A program made the position numbers and the translations under genes. Positions 2,759-5,762 of a stretch of DNA of 19,407 nt are shown piece by piece. Each line of letters starts with the position of its first letter. Position 1 is the stretch's first letter. A model generated the notes under the pieces. The model was not told where the DNA came from. It was given only the letters and a program-made list of their open reading frames with translations, and searched no databases. The stretch lies in contig JAUZQH010000002.1 of NCBI GenBank assembly GCA_030951065.1, positions 1 through 19,407 of the forward strand, given 5' to 3'. Origin of the DNA: Mariprofundus sp. GTDB taxonomy: Bacteria > Pseudomonadota > Zetaproteobacteria > Mariprofundales > Mariprofundaceae.

Positions 2759-3037
2759 ATGGCTAACATGCCGCGCATGCAAACTTTACCCGATCTATTG
2801 AAATCACTGTGGCAGCGCATCGGCTCGATGTCGCTGGCTATTATTCTTCTCGTAGTACTGTCGATCGCATCGGTGATTGGCACGGTGCTGCTGCAAAATC
2901 AGGACCAGGCTGATTATCTGCAGCAGTTCGGGCCGTTGTGGTACTGGGTGTTCCGTTCGCTGGGCCTGTTTGATATGTACCATACATGGTGGTTCATGAG
3001 CATGCTCGGTTTTTTGATGGTGTCGCTGTCATCATGA
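2759..3037 (+). CDS. resB: Cytochrome c biogenesis protein ResB, N-terminal part ending at an in-frame TGA
   Basis: ResB (also named CcsB or Ccs1) pairs with CcsA to move haem across the membrane and ligate it to apocytochrome c in System II. These 92 residues hold the first two membrane segments: about 20-42 (SLAIILLVVLSIASVIGTVLL) and about 68-90, including the family motif YHTWWF. The frame stops at TGA 3035-3037 and continues in the same frame for 473 more residues of clear ResB sequence, so this is the front of a full-length gene of about 566 codons. Start ATG 2759 follows the TsaC-like stop by 14 nt with no good ribosome site. ATG 2768 or 2777 are alternatives. Alone, this piece lacks the large periplasmic domain and should not function. 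Confidence 0.85.
   Translation: MANMPRMQTLPDLLKSLWQRIGSMSLAIILLVVLSIASVIGTVLLQNQDQADYLQQFGPLWYWVFRSLGLFDMYHTWWFMSMLGFLMVSLSS
3035..3037 (+). other. In-frame TGA at the position of a conserved Cys in resB
   Basis: The reading is MVSLSS-TGA-LWRTVPKMLKEM. ResB proteins as I remember them read like VSTSLC-xx-RNAPKMLKEM here, so the TGA falls on the Cys codon (TGT or TGC in relatives) with no frame change on either side. TGA is an ordinary stop in this genome (purD, the TsaC-like gene, proB, rlmH and others end with it), so a global recode of TGA is excluded. Explanations are a base-call or assembly error, a new nonsense mutation, or local readthrough or selenocysteine. Confidence 0.75.
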
Positions 3038-4459
3038 TTGTGGCGCACTGTACCGAAAATGCTCAAGGAAATGCGCACGCGCAAAGCCACCGTGGCCGAA
3101 AAGTCCCTGAAGCGATTCCAGTATCTGCATGACTGGAGGCTGCCTGCGGAAATGGATATTGCGCATGTGCAGCAGACTTTCCGAAAACGCCTTCGGGGCT
3201 GGGAGTTTAGAGAAGCAGAACAGGATGGCGTGCAATATATTCGTGCCGATAAAGGACGCTGGAATAAATGGGGCTATATTCTGGTGCATTCAGCGATTCT
3301 GGTTATTCTTGTCGGTGGCTGGATGGGTTCGGAGTACGGATTCCGCGGTAATATGGCGGTGCCCGAAGGCCAGTCAGAGAGTGAAATTTCCTTCCTGCAG
3401 GGTACGGAAACAGGGCATTTGAAAATGCCGTTTGAAGTGCGCTGTAACAGTTTTTCGATCGATTTCTTTCCGACCGGAGCTCCCAAGGAGTTCCGCAGTA
3501 ACCTGACCATTATCGATAACGGCAAGGAAGTACTGACCAGCGATATTATCGTCAATGAGCCGCTGTACTATAAAGGTGTGCGAATTTATCAGGCCAGTTT
3601 CGGTGATGGGGGTTCGGATATCACCTTCAAGCTGTTTCATATGGATGGCTCGGAGAAGATCAGCTATGCCAAGGTGCAGGTCTATAAAACATGGAAGGAT
3701 GAAAAGACCGGCACGTCGATCAAGGTGACCGACTTCAAGCCGTACAATGTCGAGAATATGGCCAATCCGGGGGAGCCCAAAGATTTTCAGGATCTGGGTC
3801 CTGCGGTTGAATATGAGCTGCGCGGCCCCGGTTTGAAGCCGGTCAAGATCAAGGCGTTCATGAATCCGTTTATAGATGCCAAAGGTGTTAATCAGGGTTC
3901 GTTTTTGATGGTGTCCCTGACCGGTGACAAACAAGACTACAAACCGGTGGCGCTGGGGCTGGATTTGACCAATCCGGTGGAGTGGAAGCTGTTTCATGCT
4001 TTTATGCGGCAGCTGGCCGTAGTCGGCAAACAATCCAAACAGGCCAATTTGACCGCATTTAAAAAGGCGATGGCCGAAGTGTTTGGCGAAGGTAATCGAC
4101 CGGAAGGTTTCCAGGCCATGGCCATGCGTACCTTACAGGCGATCAATATGTTGTCAGCTCTGCCTTGGCCGTTGCTGCCGATGCTGGACGATTTCGATCA
4201 GCATTATTACACCGGCCTGCAGCTGGCCAAGGATCCGGGCATGAATGTTGTCTGGTTTGGCAGCGCCATGCTGGTGATTGGCCTGTGCATCATGTTCTAT
4301 ATGCCGCATCGCAAACTGTGGTTGATTGTCAGACCTGTATCGGGTGCTTTGCACATCAGTCTGGCGGGTATGGCAAATCGCAATCACCTTGTTTTTAATC
4401 AGGCTTTTAATGATATATTCACACAACTTGATAAGGATTTCGCCCAGGGTAAATCCTGA
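3038..4459 (+). CDS. resB: Cytochrome c biogenesis protein ResB, remainder downstream of the in-frame TGA
   Basis: This is the remaining 473 residues of ResB, in the same frame as the segment ending at 3037. It contains the cytoplasmic linker, the third membrane segment around 80-95 (GYILVHSAILVILVGGW, with the conserved haem-related His at 84), a long periplasmic domain (about 100-400), and the last membrane segment at about 402-422 (NVVWFGSAMLVIGLCIMFYM) followed by PHRKLW with His 424. No other stop or frameshift is present. If translated alone, it could begin at TTG 3038 or ATG 3059, but neither has a convincing ribosome site. ccsA follows 58 nt downstream and is the functional partner. 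Confidence 0.88.
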   Translation: MWRTVPKMLKEMRTRKATVAEKSLKRFQYLHDWRLPAEMDIAHVQQTFRKRLRGWEFREAEQDGVQYIRADKGRWNKWGYILVHSAILVILVGGWMGSEYGFRGNMAVPEGQSESEISFLQGTETGHLKMPFEVRCNSFSIDFFPTGAPKEFRSNLTIIDNGKEVLTSDIIVNEPLYYKGVRIYQASFGDGGSDITFKLFHMDGSEKISYAKVQVYKTWKDEKTGTSIKVTDFKPYNVENMANPGEPKDFQDLGPAVEYELRGPGLKPVKIKAFMNPFIDAKGVNQGSFLMVSLTGDKQDYKPVALGLDLTNPVEWKLFHAFMRQLAVVGKQSKQANLTAFKKAMAEVFGEGNRPEGFQAMAMRTLQAINMLSALPWPLLPMLDDFDQHYYTGLQLAKDPGMNVVWFGSAMLVIGLCIMFYMPHRKLWLIVRPVSGALHISLAGMANRNHLVFNQAFNDIFTQLDKDFAQGKS

Positions 4460-4517: not shown

Positions 4518-5762
4518 ATGACTGCTACGACTGCTGAAACCGGTTTTGCGACCATGCTAAATCAGGGGCGATGGGCATGGATGCGCTTTACAGCCTATCT
4601 TGGCGCGATGGCGGGCATTGCTGCTATGGCCATGTATGGTTCTTCAGGTGCGTATGAAGAAAATGCCTTTTTGTATCAGATATTAAGTATGAAAGGCTTG
4701 CTATGGGGTGGAACTGGCGCGCTGGCCGGGTGCGGCCTGGCTGTTGTTGCAAGTACCCTCAAGCCAACACTGCTGGAGACCAAAATGGCGCGTAATACGG
4801 TGCCATGGCTGGATGGCTTCGTCTTGATGGTCATACTGGCTTCTATCTGGGCGCTGTTCGAACCGAGCCAGAGCCAGATTTCCTATCAGGATCAGTCCAA
4901 TCTGTTTGCCGGTCGTGTTATTATGGCGATGAATGTGATCTTTATCTTTTCGGCTGTATCCTATATCGCGTATCTGTTTGCGCCGGAGTCATTTATCGGT
5001 CGTATCGCCACCTGGTCTGCCTATGCCGGCATCTATCTTGGCGGTTCAGCGTTATTGTTGCGCTGGCATGAGTCCTATCTGTTTGATATGGAAATCGGCC
5101 ATGCGCCGGTATCCAATCTGTATGAAGTCTTTATCCTGCTATTCTGTATTACTGCGGCGGTTTATCTGGCGCTGGAGAAACGTTACCAGGCCAAGGCTAT
5201 GGGGGCGTTTGTTCTTACGCTGGTATCCGTCGGTGTGTTTTTCGGTATCTGGCTGGATTCCGTCGGTCAGGGCGATATCAAACCGCTGGTTCCCGCGCTA
5301 CAATCCTACTGGATGAAGATTCATGTGCCGATGAATTTTGTCGGTTACGGTTCCTTTGCAGTGGCATGTGGTGCAGGGATGGCTTATCTGGTTCGTTATC
5401 GTCTTGAAGCGAGTGGCGGCAAATCAAAAATGCTGGCGATTTTCCCATCACTGGAGCAACTGGACCAGCTGGCTTACAAAGCTGTGGCGATCGGATTCCC
5501 TGCTTTCACACTGGCAACGATTCTGGGAGCTGCATGGGCTGCTGAAGCATGGGGTGGCTATTGGTCATGGGATCCAAAAGAAACATGGGCTCTTATTTTA
5601 TGGCTGATCTATGGTGCTTATCTGCACGCCCGCGTTTCACATGGCTGGCATGGCAAGGCACTGGCCTGGTGGGCTGTAGCCGGGTTCCTGGTGACGGTAT
5701 TCTGCTTCCTTGGCGTGAATATGTATCTTTCCGGCTTGCATTCATACGGTCGTCTCACATAA
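4518..5762 (+). CDS. ccsA: Cytochrome c biogenesis protein CcsA (ResC), haem exporter/lyase subunit
   Basis: CcsA is the multi-pass membrane protein that, with ResB, handles haem and attaches it to CxxCH motifs of c-type cytochromes outside the membrane. The 414-residue protein has about eight hydrophobic segments. The tryptophan-rich WWD haem-handling motif is WGGYWSWDPKETW at 345-357. Flanking family landmarks are APVSNLYE (196-203), LQSYWMKIHV (261-270, His 269) and GVNMYLSGLHSYG (399-411, His 408). The ATG at 4518 has a strong ribosome site, GAGGAGAAG at 4506-4514. The N-terminal extension, with membrane segments at about 25-40, 60-80 and 98-114 before the core domain, resembles proteobacterial versions. 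Presence of this pair implies System II rather than the CcmA-H system for at least one set of cytochromes. Confidence 0.95.
   Translation: MTATTAETGFATMLNQGRWAWMRFTAYLGAMAGIAAMAMYGSSGAYEENAFLYQILSMKGLLWGGTGALAGCGLAVVASTLKPTLLETKMARNTVPWLDGFVLMVILASIWALFEPSQSQISYQDQSNLFAGRVIMAMNVIFIFSAVSYIAYLFAPESFIGRIATWSAYAGIYLGGSALLLRWHESYLFDMEIGHAPVSNLYEVFILLFCITAAVYLALEKRYQAKAMGAFVLTLVSVGVFFGIWLDSVGQGDIKPLVPALQSYWMKIHVPMNFVGYGSFAVACGAGMAYLVRYRLEASGGKSKMLAIFPSLEQLDQLAYKAVAIGFPAFTLATILGAAWAAEAWGGYWSWDPKETWALILWLIYGAYLHARVSHGWHGKALAWWAVAGFLVTVFCFLGVNMYLSGLHSYGRLT

Follow-up and report, generated by a model that had tools for sequence, protein, structure and literature searches.

The window analysed here is the whole stretch of 19,407 nucleotides, bases 1-19407 of contig C112, in a draft genome of 1,741,667 bases (229 contigs, 90.5% complete) that we infer to be metagenome-assembled or single-cell in origin and that probably belongs to an iron-oxidising marine bacterium. 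It carries resB, encoding a System II cytochrome c biogenesis protein, followed directly by its partner gene ccsA (Table 1). The frame of resB is open across 566 codons except for one TGA, which is in frame with both sides, and a search of the window's own genome likewise reported "1 TGA" inside the resB match. When the TGA is read through, the encoded protein (2759-4456) matches the Pfam family ResB over the complete profile (398.4 bits, profile positions 1-486 of 486), and the product of ccsA matches Cytochrom_C_asm with 173.9 bits (4518-5759). The locus is therefore like known ResB/CcsB systems in its full-length domain and in its adjoining cytochrome c assembly partner, and it differs from them in that an uninterrupted frame is lacking, owing to a TGA at a Cys kept in all compared relatives. 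The open frame and the full Pfam profile confirm the description in the initial annotation of a full-length resB with a single in-frame TGA. No NCBIfam family was assigned to the read-through protein or to its homologue P0002, and among solved structures two chains of CcsBA or CcsA matched weakly and in part, with residue 93 outside both matches.

Table 1. Features at and around the interrupted resB gene (positions in the window)
Feature	Position	Strand	Basis or remark
resB (ccsB), System II cytochrome c biogenesis protein, one in-frame TGA	2759..4459	+	PF05140
In-frame TGA, residue 93 of resB	3035..3037	+	Cys in every relative examined
Private base making the TGA	3037..3037	+	In none of 43 distinct relatives
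ORF of 473 aa after the TGA, beginning with TTG; might be a re-initiation product, a reading that is not favoured	3038..4459	+	ORF list
Stem drawn in the initial annotation; no support as a signal	3040..3078	+	Shuffle test, Rfam
Second private base, residue 97 to Thr	3048..3048	+	One other base common to all 43 relatives
ccsA (resC), partner gene, uninterrupted	4518..5762	+	PF01578 and ORF

Conservation of the interrupted site was assessed at both the protein and the DNA level. The protein comparison used the best 120 of 785 homologues, spanning 541-618 aa, and the column of residue 93 was Cys in 120 of these 120. For the DNA comparison, 61 relative loci were assembled, 29 from one genome search (which had matched 41 relatives and returned loci for 29 of them) and 32 from a second contig search, and these reduced to 43 distinct sequences in which every pair was more than 5 codon differences apart. 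Across 61 genomes, a ResB match was present in 42, the window's own included, and the 19 without one comprised 18 outside the order and one, G037, within it. The codon of residue 93 was TGT in 31 and TGC in 30 of the relative loci, and TGA stood solely in the window's own row. The claim that the stop occupies a Cys site of relatives is thus borne out, and the recurrence of TGA, which the initial annotation had proposed looking for, was seen in 0 of the 43 distinct relatives and in 0 of the 120 listed proteins, although protein predictions made with the standard code would not reveal a UGA. All 17 differences between the window and P0002 lie downstream of residue 93, and only 4 of the 56 differences from P0005 lie before it, which makes the segment before residue 93 seemingly more conserved in general. 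The haem-binding Cys of B. subtilis ResB is probably Cys138, which would lie at the place matching residue 93. A review describes covalent haem binding by B. subtilis ResB, probably via a Cys (PMC3884852).

The rest of the gene shows no sign of decay. The closest relative among the DNA sequences compared, MAG: Mariprofundus sp. isolate S139_64 (L040), shares 93.3% identity across 3398 bases, resB among them. Eight non-synonymous changes (the TGA included) and 20 synonymous changes in resB fall on the window branch, versus 7 and 24 on the L040 branch (Fisher p 0.77), with a further 4 non-synonymous and 26 synonymous changes that have no branch assignment. When residue 93 is taken as Cys, the window deviates at 0 of the 152 columns with at least 98% conservation among the best 120 of 785 homologues. 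Amino-acid changes are not in excess and conserved columns are kept, and the reading as an old pseudogene was accordingly rejected; constraint across the rest of resB is undiminished. The lineage, probably an iron-oxidising one, is taken to depend on c-type cytochromes. In the window's own genome (90.5% complete) one ResB was found and the System I protein CcmF gave no CcmF_C match; as far as a genome of that completeness shows, c-type cytochromes seem to be made by System II alone. Since only one ResB and no CcmF were found and ccsA is uninterrupted, a real loss of resB should be costly in an iron oxidiser.

We listed private bases, defined as window bases that are absent from all 43 distinct relatives, at codons for which 15 or more of these relatives had sequence; the list spans 1692 resB bases (564 of 566 codons). 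The window has just two private bases in resB, at 3037 and 3048, which are 11 nt apart and both non-silent; the base at 3048 was absent from the account in the initial annotation. At residue 97, which it changes, the best 120 of 785 homologues have Asn (98), His (21) or Gln (1), and Thr in none. A pair of positions drawn at random from 1698 would be separated by no more than 11 bases with probability 0.013, for a test picked after the data had been seen. Six comparison relatives have 1, 2, 7, 8, 7 and 7 private bases in resB, and one of these six, L045, has three inside 25 codons, two of them in a single codon, which shows that private bases do at times lie near one another. Elsewhere in the window, ccsA has one private base and galU four, the latter in a comparison with only 19 relatives. 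Copying of the private bases from a nearby repeat was ruled out, since the window holds matches of just 8-10 bases. The clustering of the two bases suggests either one local consensus error or one compound mutation.

Machinery for selenocysteine insertion was sought in 41 genomes: the window's own, 22 of the genus, two more of the family, four more of the order and 12 more of the phylum. Among the 29 genomes from the order, the own one included, selA had no match and neither selB nor selD exceeded the cut-off; the own genome (90.5% complete) has only matches below the cut-off, seven for selB and two for selD. The 29 include two genomes of the same genus, G007 and G011, that are single-contig and 99% complete and are without sel genes above the cut-off. 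Across all 41 genomes, selA was found, and selB scored above the cut-off, in one of the same phylum (G049), and selD scored above the cut-off in four, all of the same phylum (G045, G048, G049 and G051). The weaker matches, present in 41 of 41 genomes for selB and in 40 of 41 for selD, we interpret as other translation GTPases and as AIR-synthase-like proteins, respectively. G049, which besides selA and selB has a selD with an in-frame TGA (L074, G049:C4:87190-88110), probably encoding a selenoprotein SelD, served as a positive control.

Searching the own genome for tRNA-Sec (selC) yielded 13 matches, each of them below the gathering score, and all read as ordinary tRNAs: 12 as called by ARAGORN and one, at the start of C53, a cut-off tRNA-Ser as judged by eye. 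A UCA anticodon was found at 0 of 37 tRNA places (35 from ARAGORN and 2, truncated by contig ends, read by eye). As tRNA-Trp is likewise missing among the tRNAs read, the set is incomplete, and a missing selC alone is weak evidence. Release factor 2 (prfB) is present in the own genome, and TGA terminates 12 of the 20 window genes checked, resB included, which together rule out TGA as a genome-wide sense codon. The stem that the initial annotation had drawn downstream of the TGA can form as a pairing, but its reading as a signal is unsupported: the minimum free energy of the region is -11 kcal/mol, against a mean of -12.22 for dinucleotide shuffles (z +0.51), with equal or better folding in 135 of 200 shuffles. 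A bSECIS stem right after the UGA, as in bacterial selenoproteins, is thus not supported by the shuffle test, and Rfam gave no match at gathering scores across the window. The matches returned by a literature search on ResB together with selenocysteine had neither word in title or abstract.

The window and 20 other contigs of the 229 (182,115 bases) were scanned, on the basis of coding potential, for in-frame stops flanked in both directions by 40 or more open codons. Ten candidates were obtained, nine of which read, by eye and not by homology, as neighbouring genes or antisense frames. With resB alone among the ten judged to be an interrupted gene, by eye and for in-frame stops only, the assembly is not riddled with stops.

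Taken together, the sequence comparisons make a local base-level error in the draft genome consensus the explanation that we consider rather probable. One short bad patch, at about 3037-3048, would have introduced two wrong bases into resB, one of which happens to make the conserved Cys93 codon a stop, and the gene would otherwise be normal and functional; reads or cells would then be expected to lack the two private bases. An error is favoured because both private bases are non-silent and fall at sites under strong conservation, one being Cys and the other Asn, His or Gln in all 120 homologues compared. It is preferred over a recent nonsense mutation because the private bases cluster, no selenocysteine machinery was found, the TGA does not recur in relatives examined and constraint is undiminished. 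Several points count against it: (i) the rest of the assembly is little damaged by stops in the 182,115 bases scanned; (ii) the nearest relative compared at DNA level, L040, is only 93.3% identical, so that it offers no second sequence of the same strain; (iii) L045 likewise has clustered private bases; and (iv) a compound mutation could also put two changes 11 nt apart. Error or mutation had been the favoured prior of the initial annotation, and that preference is supported and strengthened. Since an error or a fresh mutation is indicated, and a special rereading of the stop is not, the finding is an ordinary one.

The main competitor, which we regard as possible though clearly the less probable of the two, is a genuine and very recent nonsense mutation, perhaps compound with the change at 3048 and either fixed or polymorphic in the sampled population. 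Under such a mutation, a 92-residue fragment would be made, and full-length ResB would arise only in traces by ordinary leaky reading of UGA. The base is present in the assembled consensus, little other damage by in-frame stops was seen among the 182,115 bases scanned, and a mutation too recent to have left its mark would likewise go with undiminished constraint. Strong counter-selection would, however, be expected in a genome (90.5% complete) with a single ResB and no CcmF found, and two private non-silent changes in 12 bases would require a special event.

It is highly improbable that ResB is made in two pieces, with residues 1-92 as one and, as the other, a protein of 473 aa whose translation restarts at the TTG immediately 3' of the TGA, even though the remaining frame is open. 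When the pieces of 473 aa and 92 aa were used to search for a recurrent split, the only suggestive case was P0122, a JGI metagenome protein of 466 aa that starts at the equivalent of codon 101. This start lies eight codons past the TGA site; the protein is just 71% identical, the longest contig encoding it measures 2767 bases, and a gene-calling artefact or another disruption may account for it. Against a split, the best 120 of 785 relatives are all 541-618 aa long, 0 of the 7 N-terminal fragments found end at residue 92, the in-frame fragments that pass the site (P0131 and P0132) both carry Cys, and the break would sit, by eye, at the end of a hydrophobic segment. A recurrent split at residue 92 is accordingly not supported, and the split ResB raised as a possibility in the initial annotation finds little backing. 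A similarly slim chance attaches to the TGA being real and tolerated, either through two pieces that assemble or through efficient reading of UGA by an unrecognised tRNA, with Thr97 compensating.

Selenocysteine insertion or another programmed read-through at the UGA, the alternative named in the initial annotation, is the least probable reading: the TGA does lie in a frame open on both sides, at a Cys kept by all relatives examined of a haem-handling protein, but the sequence evidence comes close to refuting it, since in the 29 genomes from the order selA was not found and neither selB nor selD exceeded the cut-off, the 13 tRNA-Sec matches are sub-threshold and ordinary with no UCA anticodon at the 37 tRNA places, prfB is present with TGA ending 12 of 20 window genes, the stem is no better than shuffles, and no relative examined has the TGA. 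In other words, resB resembles bacterial selenoproteins that have Cys homologues in having a TGA at the Cys site, and differs from them in the machinery not found, the unsupported stem and the want of any TGA in the family members examined. Were UGA recoded here, against this evidence, it would represent a new selenoprotein family in a lineage in which no known selenocysteine machinery was found. Where reads are lacking, a comparison of one genome with many relatives that picks out its private bases can help in telling a local fault from recoding.

The interrupted gene can also be set beside the sporadic interrupted genes of draft and metagenome-assembled genomes, which it resembles as an isolated stop in a conserved gene and from which it differs in the second private base 11 nt off, marking a local patch. 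In another draft genome of Mariprofundus, resB is interrupted by one TAG at the place matching residue 122 (L042, JAUZRH010000267.1, position 4364, equal to L016 position 1861), which indicates that scattered stops occur in such draft assemblies. Two other reports of internal stops in resB were rejected. The internal TGAs reported for G007 and G011 are taken as natural gene ends, the aligned resB of both being stop-free (L031 and L032), and the TAA reported in a second ResB of the draft genome G018 was discounted, aligned residues 17-557 being stop-free. That second ResB (L141, G018:C83) is 64% identical over the same residues, and it would reflect either a bin that mixes two lineages or a second gene copy.
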